A stretch of DNA of 59,303 nt from the NCBI GenBank assembly GCA_903893975.1, contig CAITOL010000202.1, positions 1 to 59,303 on the forward strand. The letters run 5' to 3'. This DNA comes from an uncultured Rhodospirillales bacterium. GTDB lineage: Bacteria; Pseudomonadota; Alphaproteobacteria; Acetobacterales; Acetobacteraceae. Every line of letters starts with the position of its first letter. Within the stretch, counting starts at the first letter, position 1. The position numbers and the translations under genes are program-made. The notes under the pieces are model-generated. The model searched no databases. It worked only from the letters and a program-made list of their open reading frames with translations, and was not told where the DNA came from. Shown here one piece after another: positions 16,742 through 49,251 of the stretch.

Positions 16742-17514
16742 GCCTGCGCCGCCGTGCCGTGCTGGCGGCGGGGCTGGCCGCGGCAGCCTGGCCGGCGCAG
16801 GCGGCGGGGCCGCTGGCGACGGTGGCGATTGACCGCTCGCAGACCGGTTGGTGGCGGGATCGCCATGCCGCGAAGCTGCGGGAGTTGAAGGCGGGGCCGG
16901 TGGAGCTGATCGTCCTCGGCGATTCGATTTTGCATAATTTTGAACGGGTTGGACCGCCTGCTTACTACGACTATCAGCCAGTCTGGCAGCGGTTTTATGG
17001 CGACCGGCATGCGGTCAATCTCGGGTTCAAGGGCGATGCGACCAGCCATTTGCTGTGGCGCATGGGTCATGGCGAGTTGGACGGGATTGCGCCGAAAGTG
17101 GCGGTGGTGCTGATCGGGGCGAATAATCTGGGGCGGGTGCATTGGCCGACGGCGGAAAATATCGCGGGCGTGACGGCGGTGGTGGACACGGCGCGGAAGA
17201 AGCTGCCGCGGACGCATATTCTGCTGCTGGGCATTTTGCCGTCCGATCGTTCGCCTTGGGCTAGCCAGACTACGCTGGAGGTGAATGCTGGGCTCGCCGC
17301 GCGCTATGGCAGTGGGGCGGTGGCCGGGGTGAGCTATCTGGATGTGGGCAAGGTGCTGCTGCGTGACGGGCGGGCCGATCATGCGCTGTATTACGACCCG
17401 ATGCTGTCGCCGCCAGAGCCGACGCTGCACCCGACGCCGGAGGGGATGACGCGGATTGCCCGGGCGATGGAGCCGACATTGGCGCGGCTGCTGGGCGATA
17501 AGCTGCACGGCTGA
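16738..17514 (+). CDS. Exported SGNH/GDSL-type hydrolase
   Basis: The 258-residue protein begins with a signal peptide (RRR followed by an alanine-rich core, likely cleaved after AQA near residue 23). Block I GDSILHNF gives the catalytic serine, block II GFKGDAT the oxyanion glycine, and block III GANN the asparagine. The block V histidine is in PTLHPTPEGM, but the usual aspartate three residues earlier is proline. It resembles the platelet-activating-factor acetylhydrolase branch and probably cleaves an ester in the periplasm. It is the last gene of the overlapping chain from 14530. Confidence 0.82.
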   Translation: MSLRRRAVLAAGLAAAAWPAQAAGPLATVAIDRSQTGWWRDRHAAKLRELKAGPVELIVLGDSILHNFERVGPPAYYDYQPVWQRFYGDRHAVNLGFKGDATSHLLWRMGHGELDGIAPKVAVVLIGANNLGRVHWPTAENIAGVTAVVDTARKKLPRTHILLLGILPSDRSPWASQTTLEVNAGLAARYGSGAVAGVSYLDVGKVLLRDGRADHALYYDPMLSPPEPTLHPTPEGMTRIARAMEPTLARLLGDKLHG

Positions 17515-39835: not shown

Positions 39836-40623
39836 AATCTGTGCGCGCCGTGGTGTTCAACGCCTATTGCTGGGTGGTGTACGGATTTTTGCTGGCGCCG
39901 ATTGCCGTGGTGGTGCTGGCGTCGTTCAATTCCGGGGCGTTTCTGACCTTTCCGCCGCAGGGATTGTCGTTGCGGTGGTATTACGTGTTTTTCGACAATG
40001 AGGTGTTCTGGCGCGCGATCCGCACCTCGCTGTGGGTGGCGGCGGTGGCGACGGTGATTTCGGGCGCGGTGGGCACGGCGGCGGCGATTTTTCAGGTGCG
40101 CTATGCCGGGCGCGGCAAGGAGGCGGTGCGGATGGCCATGCTGGCGCCGTTGCTGCTGCCGGAAGTGCTGACGGCGATTGCGCTGCTGTTTTTCGTCTAC
40201 GGGCTGGGCATTGGCACCAAGGGCATGGTGGGGCTGCTGGCCGGTCATTTGCTGGTGACGCTGCCGTTTGTGTTCATGAATGTGGCGGCATCGCTGGAAA
40301 GTTTTGAGCCGGATTGGGATCTGGCGGCGCGCAGCCTGGGCGCCGGGCGGTGGGCGCGGTTTCGGCGGGTGATGTTGCCGATGATCAAGCCTGGGGTGAT
40401 CGGCGGCTGCCTGTTCGCGTTTATTATTTCGTTCGACACGTTCACCATGTCGTTCCTGCTGAAAAGCGTGGGGACGGCGACGTTGCCGATCCAGCTTTAT
40501 GATTATCTGCGCACCAATTTTACCCCGGAGGCGGCGGCGGTGTCGTCGTTCAGCGTGATTTTGACCTTGGTGGTGGTGGTGGTTTCGGAAAAGCTGCTGG
40601 GGTTGAAGATCCGCCGGTTTTAG
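39832..40623 (+). CDS. Spermidine/putrescine-type ABC transporter permease, PotC-like
   Basis: This 263-residue permease has an N-terminal helix ending in the PotC-like VVLASFNSGAF. Its EAA loop is DLAARSLGAGRWARFRRVMLPMIKPGV. It completes the five-gene oxygenase-importer operon. Its stop overlaps the stop of the convergent indolepyruvate oxidoreductase gene by four bases. Confidence 0.92.
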   Translation: MKSVRAVVFNAYCWVVYGFLLAPIAVVVLASFNSGAFLTFPPQGLSLRWYYVFFDNEVFWRAIRTSLWVAAVATVISGAVGTAAAIFQVRYAGRGKEAVRMAMLAPLLLPEVLTAIALLFFVYGLGIGTKGMVGLLAGHLLVTLPFVFMNVAASLESFEPDWDLAARSLGAGRWARFRRVMLPMIKPGVIGGCLFAFIISFDTFTMSFLLKSVGTATLPIQLYDYLRTNFTPEAAAVSSFSVILTLVVVVVSEKLLGLKIRRF

Positions 40624-43600
40624 TCCGCCAAGGCGTGCAGCAGGGCGGCTTGTTGTGCGGCGGCGCGGGCGGCGGCCTGGCGTTTGACCGGGCCGAAGCC
40701 GCGCACGGTATCGGCCAGACCGGCGATTTCGACGATTTTGCTGTGGTTGGCGGCGGAGAGCCGGGGCAGCAAGGTGGCGAGCAGGGCTTCATAGTCGTGC
40801 GGCGCCTGCCGTTCGGCGCGGCGTTCGGCGGTCCAGCCGAACGGGTCGTACCACTGGCCGCGCACCGATTTCAGGCCGGCGAGCAGGCGGAAGGCAGGCT
40901 CGATCCAGCGGCCGACGCTGATTTTGGCCGGGGCGCCGGTGCGGGCGTCGCGGCGGAAGGATAGCAGCGGCGGGGCGAGGTGGTAGCGGAAGCGGGCGCC
41001 GGGGCTGAACTGGCGGGCCAGCGCGCTGCGGAAGCGTGGATCGAGGTGCAGGCGGGCGAATTCGTACTCGTCCTTATAGGCCATCAGGCGGAAGGCGCTG
41101 TTGGCGACGGCGCGCGCCAGGGCGGTGCGGCCGGGGGCGACGGCGGCCTCGGCTTCGGCGGCGCGGGCGACGAGGTCGCGGTAGCGTTGCGCGTAGGCGG
41201 CGTTCTGATAGGCCTGCAAATGCGCGGCGCGGGTGGCGACCAGTTCGGCGAAGCTGGCGGGTGCGGCCGGTTGGGCGGGGGTGGCGTTGGCGGCCAGGCG
41301 GCCCCAGGCGAAGGCCATGAGGTTCATTTCCACCGCCGCGCCGTTCAGCGTGATCGCCTCCATCAGCGCGGCGTGCGAGAGCGGCACCAGACCGCGCTGC
41401 CAGGCATTGCCGAGCAGCCACATATTGGCGGCGACACTGTCGCCAAGTTGTGCCAGGGCGGCGGTGGTTGCATCCACCAACGCCAGACGGTCGCGGAGCG
41501 CGGTGCGCAGGCTGTGGCGCAGGCCGGCTTCCTGCAGGTCGATGCCGGTATCGCGCACGAAGGCGGCGGTGGGGGTGACGTGGCTGTTGACCAGCGCCTG
41601 GGTGCGGCCGGGGGCGACGGCTTTGAGTGCGGTATCGCCCGCGGCGACCACCATATCGAAGCCGAGCAGCAGATCGGCTTCGGCGAGGCCGATTTTGGTG
41701 GGGGTGACGGCGGCGTGGGCCGGGCGCAGGCGGAGATGCGAGACGACGGCGCCGTTTTTCTGCGCCAGCCCGGTTTGGTCGAGCAGGGAGACGTGCCAGC
41801 CATCCTGCTGCGCGGCTTCTGCCATGATGGCGGCCACGGTGATGACCCCGGTGCCGCCGATGCCGGCGAGCAGGATGTCGCACTGATCCGCCGCCGGGCG
41901 GCTGGGGGTGGGGAGGGCGGCGAGCGCGGCAGGGTCTGCCGCGGTGGCGCGGGCGGGGCGGGCGAGGCCGCCGGTGACGGTGACGAAGCTGGGGCAGAAG
42001 CCTTTGACGCAGGAGAGATCGATATTGCAACTGGATTGGTTGATCCGGCGCTTGCGGCCGAGATCGGTTTCCACCGGTTCGATGGAAATGCAGTTGGAGA
42101 CGGCCGAGCAGTCGCCGCAGCCTTCGCAGACCAGATCGTTGATGAAGGCGCGGGCGGGTGGGGTGGGCAGGGCGCCGCGCTTGCGGCGGCGGCGTTTTTC
42201 CGCGGCGCAGACCTGATCGAACACCATCACGGTGACACCGGGCACGGCGCGCAGGTCGCGCTGCACGGCGTCCAACTGGTCGCGGTCGCGCAGCAGGACC
42301 TGGGTGGGGAGGTGGCCGCGATGGCGGGACGGGTCTTCGGCGACCACGGCGACTTTGGCGGCACCTTCGGCCAGAACCTGGGCCACGACCTGCGGCACGG
42401 TCAGGGTGCCGTCCAGCTTTTGCCCGCCGGTCATGGCGACGGCGTCGTTATAGAGGATTTTGTAAGTGGCGTTGACGCCGGCGGCGATGGCGGCGCGGAT
42501 GGCGAGGATGCCGGAGTGGAAATACGTTCCGTCGCCGATATTGACGAAGATGTGGTTTTCATCGGTGAACGGCGCCATGCCGGTCCAGGCGACGCCTTCG
42601 CCGCCCATTTGGGTGAAGGTGGCGGTGGCGCGGTCGGGGTTGCCGATGATCATCATATGGCAGCCGATGCCGGTGCTGGCGCGGCTGCCATCGGGCACGC
42701 GGGTGGAGATGGAATGCGGGCAGCCGGAGCAGAAATACGGCTCCCGCTGCACGCCGGGGATGCTGGTCGGGCGGGGGGTGGTGCTGGCAGCGAGGCGTTG
42801 CGCGGCGTCTGCGAGATCGGCCGCGAGGTCTGGGAAGGCGGCGAGGATGGCGCGGGCGACGCTGACCGGTTCGATTTCGCCCCAGGCGGGCAGCAGCACA
42901 TCGCCGGAGGGGCCGGTTTTGCCGAAAATGCGCGGGCGGGCGTCGGCGGGGGCGTTGTAGAGCTGGGTGCGCATCTGGTCTTCGATGACGCCGCGTTTTT
43001 CTTCCACCACCAGCACCGTGCTGAGGCCGTTGGCGAAGGTGGCGATGCCGGTGGGCTCCAGCGGCCAGACCAGGCCGACTTTGTAGAGCCGCAAGCTCAG
43101 TTGCTCGGCCCGGGCGGTGTCGATGCCGAGGCGGGTGAGGGCGCCTTGCAGGTCTAGCCAGGCTTTGCCGGAGGCGACGATGCCGAAGCGGGCGCGCGGC
43201 GGGGCAGTGGTTTGCTGGTCGAGCTGGTTGGCGGCGGCGAAGCGGGTGACGGCGTGCAGCTTATCTTGCAGCAGGCGGCGTTCCATGGCGTGCGAGCCGT
43301 CTGGCCAGCGGGCGGAGAGGCTTTCGCCATGGGCAAGCGCGGGGTGGATAATGGTGGGGAGCGTGTCGGCGAGCGGGATGGTGGCGGTGCATTCGACGAT
43401 GTCGGTCTGGCATTTGAAGCCGGTCCAGGCGCCGGAATAGCGGCTCATCGCCCAGCCGAGCAGGCCGAAGCGGATGAATTCAGCCAGGCCGGCCGGGCTG
43501 AGCAGCGGCACGCCGGCGGAGATGAGGTTTTGCTCGCTCTGATGCGGCAGGGTGGAGGAGGAGGCGCCGTGGTCGTCGCCGACCAGCAGCAGCACGCCGC

Positions 43601-44009
43601 CATGTGGCTGGGTGCCGGCGGCGTTGGCGTGGCGGATGACGTCCATGCTGCGGTCGACGCCCGGGCCTTTGCCGTACCACATGGCGAAGACGCCGTCGTA
43701 GCGCGCGCCGGGGAAGAAGCCGAGTTGCTGGCTGCCCCAGACGGCGGTGGCGGCCAGATCTTCGTTGATGCCCGGGCGGAAGACGACGTGCTCGGCGGCG
43801 AGAAAGCGTTGCGCGCGGGTGAATTCACGGTCGAGCCCGCCGAGCGGGGAGCCACGGTAGCCGGAGACGAAGCCGGCGGTGTTCAGCCCGGCCTGCTGGT
43901 CTAGCCGCCGTTGGGTCAAAGCGAGCCGCACCAAAGCCTGATTGCCGGAGAGCAGCGCGGATTGGGCGGTGGGGCCGTAACGCTGGTCGAGCAAATCCGC
44001 TGTCATCAT
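40620..44009 (-). CDS. Indolepyruvate ferredoxin oxidoreductase family protein (fused alpha and beta)
   Basis: This 1129-residue fused 2-oxoacid:ferredoxin oxidoreductase decarboxylates aryl or branched 2-oxoacids to acyl-CoA. The N-terminal pyrimidine domain includes NTAGFVSGYRGSPLGG. The TPP region has CSGCPHSISTRVPDG and VNIGDGTYFHSG. A cysteine-rich Fe-S region reads CEGCGDCSAVSNC and later CNIDLSCVKGFCP. The C-terminal gamma-type domain has LLAGIGGTGVITVAAIMAEA. I chose ATG at 44009 (a second ATG follows at once); the extension to 44060 is not protein-like. The fused forms often run aerobically in proteobacteria, unlike the archaeal two-subunit enzyme. Confidence 0.9.
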   Translation of the reverse strand: MMTADLLDQRYGPTAQSALLSGNQALVRLALTQRRLDQQAGLNTAGFVSGYRGSPLGGLDREFTRAQRFLAAEHVVFRPGINEDLAATAVWGSQQLGFFPGARYDGVFAMWYGKGPGVDRSMDVIRHANAAGTQPHGGVLLLVGDDHGASSSTLPHQSEQNLISAGVPLLSPAGLAEFIRFGLLGWAMSRYSGAWTGFKCQTDIVECTATIPLADTLPTIIHPALAHGESLSARWPDGSHAMERRLLQDKLHAVTRFAAANQLDQQTTAPPRARFGIVASGKAWLDLQGALTRLGIDTARAEQLSLRLYKVGLVWPLEPTGIATFANGLSTVLVVEEKRGVIEDQMRTQLYNAPADARPRIFGKTGPSGDVLLPAWGEIEPVSVARAILAAFPDLAADLADAAQRLAASTTPRPTSIPGVQREPYFCSGCPHSISTRVPDGSRASTGIGCHMMIIGNPDRATATFTQMGGEGVAWTGMAPFTDENHIFVNIGDGTYFHSGILAIRAAIAAGVNATYKILYNDAVAMTGGQKLDGTLTVPQVVAQVLAEGAAKVAVVAEDPSRHRGHLPTQVLLRDRDQLDAVQRDLRAVPGVTVMVFDQVCAAEKRRRRKRGALPTPPARAFINDLVCEGCGDCSAVSNCISIEPVETDLGRKRRINQSSCNIDLSCVKGFCPSFVTVTGGLARPARATAADPAALAALPTPSRPAADQCDILLAGIGGTGVITVAAIMAEAAQQDGWHVSLLDQTGLAQKNGAVVSHLRLRPAHAAVTPTKIGLAEADLLLGFDMVVAAGDTALKAVAPGRTQALVNSHVTPTAAFVRDTGIDLQEAGLRHSLRTALRDRLALVDATTAALAQLGDSVAANMWLLGNAWQRGLVPLSHAALMEAITLNGAAVEMNLMAFAWGRLAANATPAQPAAPASFAELVATRAAHLQAYQNAAYAQRYRDLVARAAEAEAAVAPGRTALARAVANSAFRLMAYKDEYEFARLHLDPRFRSALARQFSPGARFRYHLAPPLLSFRRDARTGAPAKISVGRWIEPAFRLLAGLKSVRGQWYDPFGWTAERRAERQAPHDYEALLATLLPRLSAANHSKIVEIAGLADTVRGFGPVKRQAAARAAAQQAALLHALAD

Positions 44010-44101
44010 GCGCACCGTTGCTGAAAGGCAGACGATGGCATAGCGCCGCGCGCGCCACAAATGCGGTTTGCGTGGCGCGGGCTGGTGACGGGGATTGGTA
44101 T

Positions 44102-44114
44102 GTTATATTATAAC
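44102..44114. promoter_or_regulatory. Zur-like operator overlapping the znu promoter
   Basis: GTTATATTATAAC is a perfect 13-base palindrome (GTTATA-T-TATAAC) matching the core of proteobacterial Zur sites. It covers a TATAAC -10-like hexamer (44109-44114), with GTGACG 18 bases upstream as a possible -35. Repression when zinc is sufficient is inferred from the znuC and znuB genes downstream. Confidence 0.75.
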
Positions 44115-44117
44115 CAA

Positions 44118-44231
44118 ATGATGTTCCGCTTTTCCGATCCACTGTCCCCGACCGCTGGCCTGGCTGCGCGCCTGACGCTGGCGGTGGGGCTGTTGGCGGT
44201 GATCTGGCTGGCGGTGCTGTGGGCGCTGTGA
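44118..44231 (+). CDS. 37-residue single-span membrane peptide coupled to znuC
   Basis: The short frame encodes a basic/polar N-terminus (MMFRFSDPLSPTAGLAAR) and one hydrophobic helix (LTLAVGLLAVIWLAVLWAL). Its TGA overlaps the znuC GTG as GTGA, the same coupling used by real genes nearby. There is no ribosome site before either ATG (44118 or 44121). A -10 ending at 44114 would place the transcript start at about 44121, so it may be translated from a leaderless message. I do not recognise a family; a role in zinc uptake is inferred from position only. Confidence 0.6.
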   Translation: MMFRFSDPLSPTAGLAARLTLAVGLLAVIWLAVLWAL

Positions 44232-44950
44232 TCCGGCTGGAGGATGTGGGCTGCCGTTACCGCCAGGCTTGGGCGGTGGAGGCGGTCAGCGGTGGGTTTG
44301 CGCCGGGGAGCCTGACCGCCGTGGTGGGGCCGAACGGGGCGGGCAAGACCACGTTGCTGCGGGCGATTGCCGGGGTGCATCCGGTGGCGGCCGGGCGGAT
44401 TGACCGGGGCGGGCTGGCGGCGAACGCGATTGCGTTGTTGCCGCAGGCGAGCCGGATGGACCGGAGTTTTCCGCTGAGCTGCGCCGATGTGGTCGCGCTG
44501 GGGGCCTGGCCGCGCATGGGCGCGTTTGCCGCATTGAAGGCCGGAGATGCGCGGCGGGTGCTGGCGGCGTTGGCGCGGGTGGGGCTGGCGGATGTGGGCG
44601 ACCGGCTGGTGGGGGCGCTGTCGGTGGGGCAGTTTCAGCGGCTGCTTTGGGCGCGGCTGCTGGTGCAGGATGCGCCGGTGCTACTGCTGGACGAGCCGGT
44701 GGCCGGGGTGGATGTGGCCAGCGAGGCGATTTTTCAGGACATGCTGGCCGAGTGGCAGCGCGAGGGCCGCACGGTGATTGCGGTGCTGCACGATCTGGAT
44801 TTGGTGCTGCGCCGGTTTCCGCAGACGCTGTTGCTGGCGCGGCGGATGATTGCCTGGGGGGAGACCGGGCAGGTGCTGTCGGCGGCCAATCGGCAGCGGG
44901 CGCGGCTGTCACTGGACCCGTGGGATGCGGCGTTGTTGGACGCGTCGTGA
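44228..44950 (+). CDS. znuC: Zinc ABC transporter ATP-binding protein
   Basis: This 240-residue ATPase of the manganese/zinc family has Walker A GPNGAGKTT, the signature variant LSVGQFQR and Walker B VLLLDEPVAGVD, then the switch histidine in VLHDLD. The Val in the signature (usually SGGQ) is a deviation. The start is GTG at 44228, overlapping the upstream micropeptide stop. Zinc is inferred from the Zur-like box; manganese cannot be excluded from sequence. Its stop shares a base with the znuB start (TGATG). Confidence 0.88.
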   Translation: MIRLEDVGCRYRQAWAVEAVSGGFAPGSLTAVVGPNGAGKTTLLRAIAGVHPVAAGRIDRGGLAANAIALLPQASRMDRSFPLSCADVVALGAWPRMGAFAALKAGDARRVLAALARVGLADVGDRLVGALSVGQFQRLLWARLLVQDAPVLLLDEPVAGVDVASEAIFQDMLAEWQREGRTVIAVLHDLDLVLRRFPQTLLLARRMIAWGETGQVLSAANRQRARLSLDPWDAALLDAS

Positions 44951-45795
44951 TGTTCGACCTGTTGTTCGACCCGTTCAGCATGGGGTTCATGCGCCGGGCG
45001 TTGGCTGGGTGCATTGCGCTGTCGCTCGCCGGGCCGCCGCTGGGGGTGTTTCTGGTGCTGCGGCGGATGAGCCTGACCACGGATGTGTTGCAGCACGGGA
45101 TTTTGCCCGGCATCGCCTTGGGCGCGGTGTTCGGCGGCATGTCGCTGCTGGCGATGGGGGCGGGCGGGTTGGTGGCCGGGCTCGCGGTGACGCTGCTGGC
45201 CGGGTGGCTGGCGCGGGTGACGGCGGGGCGGGAAGATAGCCAGCTGGCGGCGGTGACGTTGATCGCGTTGGCGGCGGGGGTGGCGATGGTCTCGCTCGGG
45301 CGCGGCATCGATCTGACGCATCTGCTGTTCGGCAGCGTGCTGGCGGTGGATGATGCGGCGCTGGTGCTGATGGCCGGGGTGGCGAGCGTGGCGCTGCTGG
45401 GGCTGGCGGTGATCTGGCGGCCGTTGATTTTGCAGAGCTTCGATCCCGGGTTTCTTGATGCGCTCGGCGGGCGTGGCGCGGTGTGGCATCTCGGCTTCAT
45501 GGCGCTGGTGGTGGCGTGCGTGGTGGGCGGGTTCGCGGCGTTGGGCACGCTGATGTCGGTGGGGTTGATGATGCTGCCGGCGGTGGCGGCGCGGCATTGG
45601 GCGGCGAGTTTGGCCGGGCAGGTTCGGGTGGCGGTTGGGGTGGCGCTGGCTTCGTCGTATGGCGGGTTGCTGGTGTCGTACTACGCCGACATCCCGGCGG
45701 GGCCGGCGATTGTGCTGGCGGCCGGGCTGGTTTGGGTGGCGGGGGTGCTGGTGGGGCGCCATGACAGCCTGCTGGGAACGTTGCGGCGCGGTTGA
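44950..45795 (+). CDS. znuB: Zinc ABC transporter permease
   Basis: This 281-residue ABC-3 family permease has about eight hydrophobic helices. Conserved segments are VLRRMSLTTDVLQHGILPGIALG and GTLMSVGLMMLPAVAARHWA. It forms the channel for ZnuC. No binding protein (znuA) or zur gene is in the window, so they must lie elsewhere. The last codons overlap the FNR box that serves the next gene. Confidence 0.9.
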   Translation: MFDLLFDPFSMGFMRRALAGCIALSLAGPPLGVFLVLRRMSLTTDVLQHGILPGIALGAVFGGMSLLAMGAGGLVAGLAVTLLAGWLARVTAGREDSQLAAVTLIALAAGVAMVSLGRGIDLTHLLFGSVLAVDDAALVLMAGVASVALLGLAVIWRPLILQSFDPGFLDALGGRGAVWHLGFMALVVACVVGGFAALGTLMSVGLMMLPAVAARHWAASLAGQVRVAVGVALASSYGGLLVSYYADIPAGPAIVLAAGLVWVAGVLVGRHDSLLGTLRRG

Positions 45796-47715: not shown

Positions 47716-48411
47716 ATGTTCGCGCAATCCCCCCACGTGTCTGGCCTGACGGTCGCTGTGCTGCTGGCCGCCTGCCTGGTTGCCGGCCCGGCCGGCCCGG
47801 CCGGCGCGACGGTCTACAGCTACACCGAAACCGGAACGATTGCGGCGGGGCAGATTGACTACAACGGGGTTTTCGGCGCCGGCGGTGCTAATCTCGGCGG
47901 CCAGACGGTCAGCTTCACCTATCGTTTCGATACCTCCCTTGCCACGGCCGGCGGTAGCTACCTGACCTATAATTATCTGCAATATACCGGCGGCGATCCG
48001 GCTGGGATGGTGGCGCGCGTCACAGTCGGCGGGGTGACCATCGCCGCCGCTTCAACCGGGTTTTCACAGATCACCGACAGTAATCCGACCGGCAACCCGG
48101 GCTTGGCTAGCACCGTCGATACCGCCATCGCCTTTACCGTCGAAGACGCGGTGGATGTGATCGCGCTGCGGCTGAATGCCTCGGCCGTCTTTAGTCTTGG
48201 CGACCTTATCGCCACCGGCTTGGGGGCGATCGATCCGTCGCAGCAACAGGCATTCTATGCCAGCAACCAAGGCGTCGGGCGGGAGGAGTTGCTGTATTTC
48301 ACCGCAAATCCTGTGCCTGAACCCGCGGGCGCGAGCGTGTTCGGCATCCTGGGGCTGGTCGGCTTGGTTGCGAGATGGCGCGCCCGAACTGTCGGGATAG
48401 TTTACAGTTGA
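47716..48411 (+). CDS. Secreted PEP-CTERM-like protein, copy 1
   Basis: The 231-residue protein has a signal peptide (hydrophobic LTVAVLLAACLVAG, cleavage near GPAGA) and a beta-rich, Ser/Thr/Gly-rich body. The tail has PVPEPAGASVFGILGLVGLV followed by RWRAR, the layout of a PEP-CTERM sorting signal. Such proteins are processed by exosortase and tied to exopolysaccharide or biofilm. The ETGTIAAGQID motif and later blocks match the next gene, so they are tandem paralogs. No exosortase gene is in the window. GGAG precedes the ATG. Confidence 0.78.
   Translation: MFAQSPHVSGLTVAVLLAACLVAGPAGPAGATVYSYTETGTIAAGQIDYNGVFGAGGANLGGQTVSFTYRFDTSLATAGGSYLTYNYLQYTGGDPAGMVARVTVGGVTIAAASTGFSQITDSNPTGNPGLASTVDTAIAFTVEDAVDVIALRLNASAVFSLGDLIATGLGAIDPSQQQAFYASNQGVGREELLYFTANPVPEPAGASVFGILGLVGLVARWRARTVGIVYS
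47783..47805 (+). repeat. Nine-base tandem repeat in the signal-peptide region
   Basis: The unit CCGGCCCGG occurs about two and a half times and encodes AGPAGPAG at the end of the signal peptide. Copy-number change would keep the frame. Confidence 0.6.
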
Positions 48412-48484: not shown

Positions 48485-48540
48485 AATAGGCTTTGAACGT
48501 CGTATTACTGGCGCTCCGACCGTCAACCTGGGAGTATTCA

Positions 48541-49251
48541 ATGCAAATCGTGCGGCGCAGTTTAACTTTGGCCCAGCTTGGACGTGTAGGGTTGGGAGTT
48601 GTCGGGCTTGGACTCGCTGCGCTTGGTGCGCCGGCGGCTATCGCCGCACCGTTCAGCTACACTCTGACCGGAACGATTTTAAGTGGCCAGACCGACAACA
48701 TCGGCGCGTTTGGCACCGCCGGGGCAAGTTTGTCCGGCCAGGCAGTCAGTTTTACCTTCAGCTACGACCCGACACTTGTCAGCTATTCCGGCCAGCAGAG
48801 TTACTATGAATTTCTGATCTACAACAACGCTGCCGGGGCTGCCGATTCGGTCACCATCGGCAACACCACCTATTCCGTGAGTTCGGGGACGGGCTACTCG
48901 GCGGTGCAAACCGAAAACGGAACCGGCAATCCTGCGCTCGCCGACCTGTATGACACCCAAATCAGTTTCAACATGACCGACGGCACCCAAGATCTCGTCC
49001 TTAATCTCTATTCTTTAAGTCATTTCGCCATCGGTCAGATCGGCACTGTCGGGCTAGGGCCGATCGACCCGACGCGTCCGCTGGATTTCTTCCTCAGCAC
49101 GGATGGTGGGACGACGTATGACAACATCTACTTCACGGCTGACGCGCAGACGACGCCGGCACCCGAGCCGGCCACGCTGGCGCTGCTGGGCGCCGGGCTT
49201 GCGGGCCTTGGCGGTGTACGCCGGCGCCGTGCTGGGTTCAAGCCCGGCTGA
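48541..49251 (+). CDS. Secreted PEP-CTERM-domain protein, copy 2
   Basis: The 236-residue protein has a signal peptide ending near PAAIAAP. The beta-rich body shares the YTLTGTILSGQ, NPALADLYDTQISF and GLGPIDPT blocks with copy 1. A clean PEP-CTERM tail follows: PAPEPATLALLGAGLAGLGG then RRRR. It should be exported, anchored and processed by exosortase. ATG at 48541 follows GGGAG; a longer frame to 48493 would precede the signal peptide. Base composition is slightly less GC-rich than neighbours. Confidence 0.88.
   Translation: MQIVRRSLTLAQLGRVGLGVVGLGLAALGAPAAIAAPFSYTLTGTILSGQTDNIGAFGTAGASLSGQAVSFTFSYDPTLVSYSGQQSYYEFLIYNNAAGAADSVTIGNTTYSVSSGTGYSAVQTENGTGNPALADLYDTQISFNMTDGTQDLVLNLYSLSHFAIGQIGTVGLGPIDPTRPLDFFLSTDGGTTYDNIYFTADAQTTPAPEPATLALLGAGLAGLGGVRRRRAGFKPG

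Follow-up and report, generated by a model that had tools for sequence, protein, structure and literature searches.

A conserved small open reading frame, predicted to encode a single-pass membrane protein, at the head of Zni-type zinc importer operons

The stretch of DNA analyzed here (the window, 59,303 nucleotides in length) carries a zinc ABC transporter operon that begins with a palindromic operator and a short open reading frame (ORF). The Zur-type operator, a perfect palindrome of the form GTTATA-T-TATAAC (GTTATATTATAAC), occupies positions 44102-44114 and is followed by CAA and then by an ATG at 44118, a spacing of three nucleotides that is too short for a Shine-Dalgarno sequence. This ATG opens a frame of 37 codons on the forward strand (44118-44231) with the product MMFRFSDPLSPTAGLAARLTLAVGLLAVIWLAVLWAL. 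A second in-frame ATG lies at 44121, and the TGA stop codon at 44229-44231 overlaps the GTG start codon (44228) of an ATPase gene as GTGA. The frame stays open for 19 codons further 5' (ORF 44061-44231), and its conserved part begins at or after 44118. The ATPase gene (AztA/ZniC-like, 44228-44950, forward strand) is followed on the same strand by a permease gene, AztB/ZniB-like by its NCBIfam scores (44950-45795). The operon has no gene for the metallochaperone AztD, and genes for a universal-stress-like protein and others come after the permease. An earlier interpretation made without database searches (the sequence-only reading) had described the palindrome three bases before an ATG, and a 37-codon frame with one transmembrane helix, a GTGA overlap and no ribosome site; all of these descriptions held. 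Around the operon, a large indolepyruvate ferredoxin oxidoreductase-like gene (40620-44060, reverse strand) diverges from the zinc genes, with a listed start within about 45 nucleotides of the operator, while two tandem genes for secreted proteins with PEP-CTERM-like C-termini (47716-48411 and 48493-49251) lie downstream.

The sequence-only reading had identified the operon as znuCB, an assignment that is corrected here. The ATPase, permease and substrate-binding protein (SBP) score 190, 216 and 266 bits against the NCBIfam models of AztA, AztB and AztC, short of the cut-offs of 220, 280 and 350. Against ZnuC, ZnuB and ZnuA they score only 85, 69 and 51 bits (cut-offs 306, 284 and 268), and the criterion for an E. 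coli-type ZnuABC is not met. The labels znuC and znuB are loose, and the transporter is nearer to the Azt/Zni type than to E. coli ZnuCB. All three proteins score best against AztA, AztB and AztC of the AztABCD system of Paracoccus denitrificans (PMC5387054, PMC7731109). However, that system has AztD and no small protein, and the window operon is the reverse on both counts. Identity with AztABCD was rejected, as all three equivalog cut-offs are missed and the small protein is absent from true azt operons. ZniCBA, described in Klebsiella pneumoniae (PMC10797113) and Rhizobium leguminosarum (PMC12183173), is a Zur-regulated transporter of the same type, and the ATPase of the window is 46% identical to the Zni ATPase of K. 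pneumoniae. One criterion for the ZniCBA type, that of cluster A-I zinc ABC proteins nearer to AztABC than to ZnuABC and controlled by Zur, is met, in the absence of Zur binding data. A second criterion, an SBP gene within the same operon, is not. Unlike in ZniCBA, the SBP gene is separate, lying on another contig behind its own operator, and therefore the operon is classed as Zni-like rather than as a ZniCBA operon.

The operator fits the description of the alphaproteobacterial Zur operator, an AT-rich inverted repeat GTTATA-N-TATAAC near zinc-uptake genes. It has a single exact match in the whole window, and the 4.2 Mb genome contains just two sites with one mismatch or fewer to the palindrome. 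The second of these is located 24 nucleotides upstream of the SBP gene, which is of the same Azt/Zni-like type as the ATPase and permease. The genome also has two Fur-family genes, one of which, on contig 199 (at about position 17336), is Zur-like with CxxC pairs and adjoins a COG0523/CobW-type GTPase gene. A Zur-like gene and a COG0523/CobW-type GTPase gene are a usual zinc-shortage pair. Because near-perfect sites precede both the small ORF and the SBP gene, and a Zur-like gene is present, the operator assignment is well supported. The same evidence, with the conservation of the site, supports the earlier proposal that Zur represses the operon through this operator, although Zur control is inferred from sequence alone, without binding data.

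The sequence-only reading had stated that the absence of a conserved frame would refute it. This check was run, and the frame proved strikingly conserved and nearly always located at a zinc operon. Among orthologous loci retrieved through the ATPase, nearly all relatives within the family Acetobacteraceae have a similar small frame in the same position. A family profile, built from 14 small frames and searched against 200 family genomes, returned 85 matches in 83 genomes, with one strong match per genome, adjoining the ATPase. Of the 85 matches, 80 share the strand of a zinc-ABC ATPase gene and lie 5' of it, with a gap of no more than 71 nucleotides in 79. The gap has one phase (2 mod 3) in 75 of the 80, as a stop codon overlapping the ATPase start would produce. 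When 385 genomes of the class were searched with a wider profile, 29 of 29 fetched non-own loci proved to lie at the ATPase/permease pair, and a third profile, applied to 398 genomes of the phylum, gave 49 of 49 non-own loci at this operon, with loci fetched down to weak E-values (78 non-own loci in all, from two genome sets that share a few members). Carriers include Pseudomonas, Bradyrhizobium, Chromobacterium, Klebsiella and Neisseria.

The linkage also holds in the opposite direction. The peptide is encoded upstream in 27 of 27 loci selected by the ATPase alone, including all 15 that were unused in profile building, and in 62 of 80 named loci selected by the permease alone. In a set of 206 upstream regions, which includes loci brought in through the peptide itself, matches of at least 10 bits within 440 nucleotides were found in 184 regions; the reverse strands gave 0 in 206, and 1030 shuffles gave only 1. 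Conservation and near-exclusive linkage are thereby shown. Two metagenome bins labeled Planctomycetota and Gemmatimonadetes (L217 and L283) contain the same operon and small gene, which may reflect horizontal transfer or misbinning. In another relative (G050; L021/L103), a similar small transmembrane frame (MKAPDTPNSSSSAARRSSGWIGLLGWGIGRRLGLAAVLLIAIWAAVYWALA) precedes an EamA-like transporter gene, after which come a Zur-type box and zinc ABC genes.

Long open frames are common in the genome of the window, and the small ORF could in principle be a spurious open frame in GC-rich DNA. This explanation is all but excluded, being refuted by the conservation and linkage described above and by the pattern of selection. 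Close pairs within the family give dN/dS values of 0.06-0.37 for the small ORF, and pS exceeds pN in frame (0.53 and 0.32), a relation that is reversed in the other two frames. The small ORF is under purifying selection, and it very likely encodes a real translated protein, though there are no expression data. An AlphaFold2 model of the product has a single helix at residues 15-36 (codons at 44160-44225, forward strand), with a mean pLDDT of 98 over residues 21-37, and the product is thus predicted to be a single-pass membrane protein. Short and His-rich members, scanned against Pfam and NCBIfam, matched no described family, the sole near-match being a sub-threshold hit of DUF7550 to a His-rich tail (E 0.2).

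A survey of 217 distinct loci gave a median product length of 42 residues, with the N-terminal start of the longest members uncertain. Arginine and tryptophan residues are near-invariant across the phylum, and the stop codon overlaps an NTG start codon (NTGA) in 174 loci. Lysine and arginine residues average 3.1 on the N-terminal side versus 0.11 in the last five residues, and therefore the N-terminus is predicted, by the positive-inside rule only, to be probably cytoplasmic. At least three histidines are present in 36 of the 217 products and at least five in 22, as in members from Vogesella, Methylopila and Microvirga (L259, L231 and L233), and 292 of 306 histidines lie before the last 22 residues.

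Comparison of relatives also bears on how the small ORF is transcribed. In 49 of 51 distinct loci from the family, the operator ends 0-5 nucleotides before the ATG (3 in 20 loci and 1 in 16), leaving no space for a ribosome site ahead of the small ORF. A TTG, mostly as TTGCC, is found 19-22 nucleotides before the operator in 35 of the 51 loci, versus 7 elsewhere in the 30 nucleotides examined, and the distance from its first T to the A of the ATG is 35-36 nucleotides in 28 of these 35. Where the operator is shifted towards the TTG, the gap between operator and ATG is larger in compensation. In the window, the corresponding -35 region (44080-44088, forward strand) is degenerate (GGCTGGTGA), and for this reason a consensus promoter scan of the window found no promoter; the -35 region is visible only through its relatives. 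From the spacing in relatives, a -10 element, TATATT, is predicted at 44104-44109 (forward strand), within the operator, and the transcript is inferred to start at about 44116-44118 with standard sigma-70 geometry.

The constant spacing between TTG and ATG, taken with this geometry, therefore places the predicted start at the ATG itself or no more than about 2 nucleotides away. By this comparison, and in the absence of a mapped 5' end, transcripts of the Acetobacteraceae loci are likely to be leaderless from the first ATG. For the species of the window itself the claim rests on relatives, because its own -35 region is degenerate. The leaderless transcript proposed by the sequence-only reading is supported to this extent, but its -10 element at 44109-44114, with a start near 44121 on the second ATG, ranks behind a start on the first ATG or no more than about 2 nucleotides from it. 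A start at the second ATG is disfavored, as just one ATG, at 1 or 3 nucleotides, is present in most relatives and the distance from TTG to ATG is fixed at 35-36. Translation of leaderless small ORFs, beginning at the first AUG of the transcript, has been documented in Alphaproteobacteria (PMC10117765). Outside the family, the operator lies further upstream in many loci, and a GAGG stretch resembling a ribosome site precedes the small ORF of K. pneumoniae, suggesting that leaderlessness is restricted locally, unlike the protein itself, which is general.

This arrangement could also be explained if the small ORF were mainly a translated leader, loading ribosomes and coupling translation to the ATPase, with a product of little function. 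In favor of this explanation are the NTGA overlap (174/217), the constant phase (75/80) and the lack of space for a ribosome site (49/51). However, a leader would not readily account for the phylum-wide conservation of residues such as the near-invariant arginine and tryptophan, dN/dS values well below 1, the maintained helix and polarity, or the His-rich tails. In addition, the stop codon of the small ORF lies 50-128 nucleotides from the ATPase in some loci, and in one relative (G116; locus L041, at about 1501-2760) the peptide gene is intact but stands apart from the ATPase gene, which it overlaps elsewhere, with a glyoxalase/VOC-type gene in between. The intact gene at this insertion therefore argues that the product itself has been kept, and the leader explanation is considered unlikely.

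A related explanation, in which the ORF is a regulatory leader peptide (attenuator) whose translation senses a condition and controls downstream transcription, draws on its location at the operon's 5' end and on a moderately stable RNA fold (z -2.07). Against it, the window scan found no terminator-like element, the fold excess is weak, there is no regulatory codon run, conservation is at the protein level across phylum-wide divergence, and Zur already provides control, so that attenuation appears very unlikely. The peTrpL ORF of Sinorhizobium meliloti is likewise small and leaderless, but it encodes a 14-residue attenuator peptide (PMC10117765), unlike the conserved membrane protein predicted here.

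In the main, the small protein tracks Zni-type importers. The Zni operon of K. pneumoniae carries a small ORF (MFTSIFMASGAVRAAIAGVLLAALWLATWWAVTLP) overlapping the ATPase start, and the zinc operon of Neisseria gonorrhoeae also carries one. The peptide is absent from Mn-type operons, from the operons of Mesorhizobium and relatives among the permease-selected loci, and from the true aztABCD/aztABC operons of Paracoccus (including Paracoccus alcaliphilus) and Phyllobacterium. In P. alcaliphilus and Phyllobacterium, the azt operons score above the AztA cut-off, and the operator lies about 70-100 nucleotides from the ATPase. Operator-less ATPase relatives (L200-L203 and L205-L207) lack the peptide too, and these relatives with neither operator nor peptide show that such an ORF is not common to every metal ABC ATPase. 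One exception is the ATPase of Skermanella, which scores just above the AztA cut-off (223 vs 220 bits) and yet is accompanied by the peptide.

In the relevant passages of the ZniCBA papers the operon consists of three genes, with no word of a small ORF (PMC10797113, PMC12183173). In R. leguminosarum, the Zur-box regulatory region spans 258-88 bp ahead of the first annotated ATG (PMC12183173), a spacing that would leave space for a hidden ORF, a possibility resting on published distances alone. In public records, the small gene appears as a hypothetical protein in Skermanella (WP_202684557) and Comamonas (WP_175506313), and it is not listed in the gene tables of Neorhizobium, Thioclava and K. 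pneumoniae CP125156. Plasmid gene tables are known to be incomplete, and thus its absence there is weak evidence. The open-access literature searched on small proteins of zinc transporters, including the Zni and Azt papers, contained nothing on the small gene.

Taken together with its genetic context, the product is proposed to be a small membrane protein, so far undescribed, that serves Zni-type zinc importers as an accessory or regulator, with a probability of roughly 0.6, its function and binding being inferred. It meets the criteria for a transporter-linked small membrane protein, namely one short helix, conservation and genetic linkage to a transporter. That it acts on the Zni-type importer is favored by a modest margin, through guilt by association and the His-rich tails. 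There are no expression, localization or interaction data, and physical association with the importer and a role in transport remain inferences. The undescribed small membrane component of zinc uptake put forward by the sequence-only reading is accordingly supported as an association, its role inferred and its function undemonstrated. KdpF, AcrZ, MgtS/MgtR/MgtU and MntS are likewise transporter-tied proteins of about 30-50 residues with one helix. However, no sequence relation between these partners and the small protein was found in Pfam or NCBIfam, and the His-rich cytoplasmic tails of many members are a further difference. A 2023 review (PMC10710835) lists MgtS, MntS, AcrZ, SgrT and others as small single-pass transporter partners, and its relevant passages include no small partner of a zinc ABC importer. 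Such partners are a known kind of protein, and none was found for a zinc ABC importer in the open-access literature searched.

Alternatively, the product could be a protease adaptor or stabilizer, comparable to MgtR/MgtS/MgtU of Mg pumps, or a modulator of some other membrane protein under zinc shortage. Known small single-pass proteins act in this way on metal transporters (PMC10710835), and one small helix would be compatible with such a role. However, the small gene is strictly linked to a single transporter subtype and missing from sister subtypes, which points to the transporter as the target, and this alternative is regarded as unlikely. It remains possible that the core is conserved for a partner other than the importer. 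Since Mesorhizobium-type operons and true aztABCD operons work without it, the small protein is not essential to the transporter fold. Among roles at the importer, that of accessory subunit or activity modulator is ranked first, followed by a zinc-sensing or zinc-receiving tail (where present) and then by a stabilizer.

Under the preferred reading of an importer-associated protein, the small ORF would be the first gene of a Zur-repressed operon that continues with the zniC/aztA-like ATPase and zniB/aztB-like permease genes. Zur with zinc would occupy the operator over the predicted -10 element and block transcription, and when zinc is scarce the transcript would begin at or within about 2 nucleotides of the first ATG. 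The small protein would then be made from the leaderless, or nearly leaderless, end and the ATPase through the stop-start overlap (NTGA), so that small protein and importer would be produced together in zinc shortage. The product would reside in the inner membrane with its N-terminus in the cytoplasm and its helix beside the permease, most likely associating with permease or ATPase as a small accessory subunit or activity regulator.

Where zinc is scarce, bacterial survival depends centrally on zinc ABC importers, and work on the Zni/Azt type in Klebsiella, Rhizobium and Paracoccus has treated it as a system of three or four genes. On present evidence, most Zni-type operons across Pseudomonadota begin with an extra gene, one that the gene tables of several records (Klebsiella, Neorhizobium and Thioclava) omit. 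Should its product turn out to be a subunit or regulator, Zni/Azt importers have been reconstituted and studied structurally without one of their parts, and ATPase gene deletions may have affected two genes. The gene is short, easy to test and found in tractable organisms.

Finally, the predicted cytoplasmic His-rich tail present in many relatives could sense zinc emerging from the pore or take it up. As a general function, zinc sensing by the tail is no more than a possibility, and the scarcity of the tail (most members lack it, with three or more histidines in only 36 of 217) counts against the main reading as well. In a bolder and tentative reading, the small protein would be a phylum-wide importer subunit whose tail senses cytoplasmic zinc and throttles the importer or hands over pore zinc, acting as a feedback valve, and whose leaderless message has an operator abutting the start codon. 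The member encoded in the window is a core without a His-rich tail, which it has either lost or never had. In a subgroup from another class of the phylum (L173, L174, L177, L183 and L190), a short His-containing start is followed by a conserved Cys/His motif, EGPCHFSLMSL or DGPCHFSLMSL, which represents another possible set of metal ligands.
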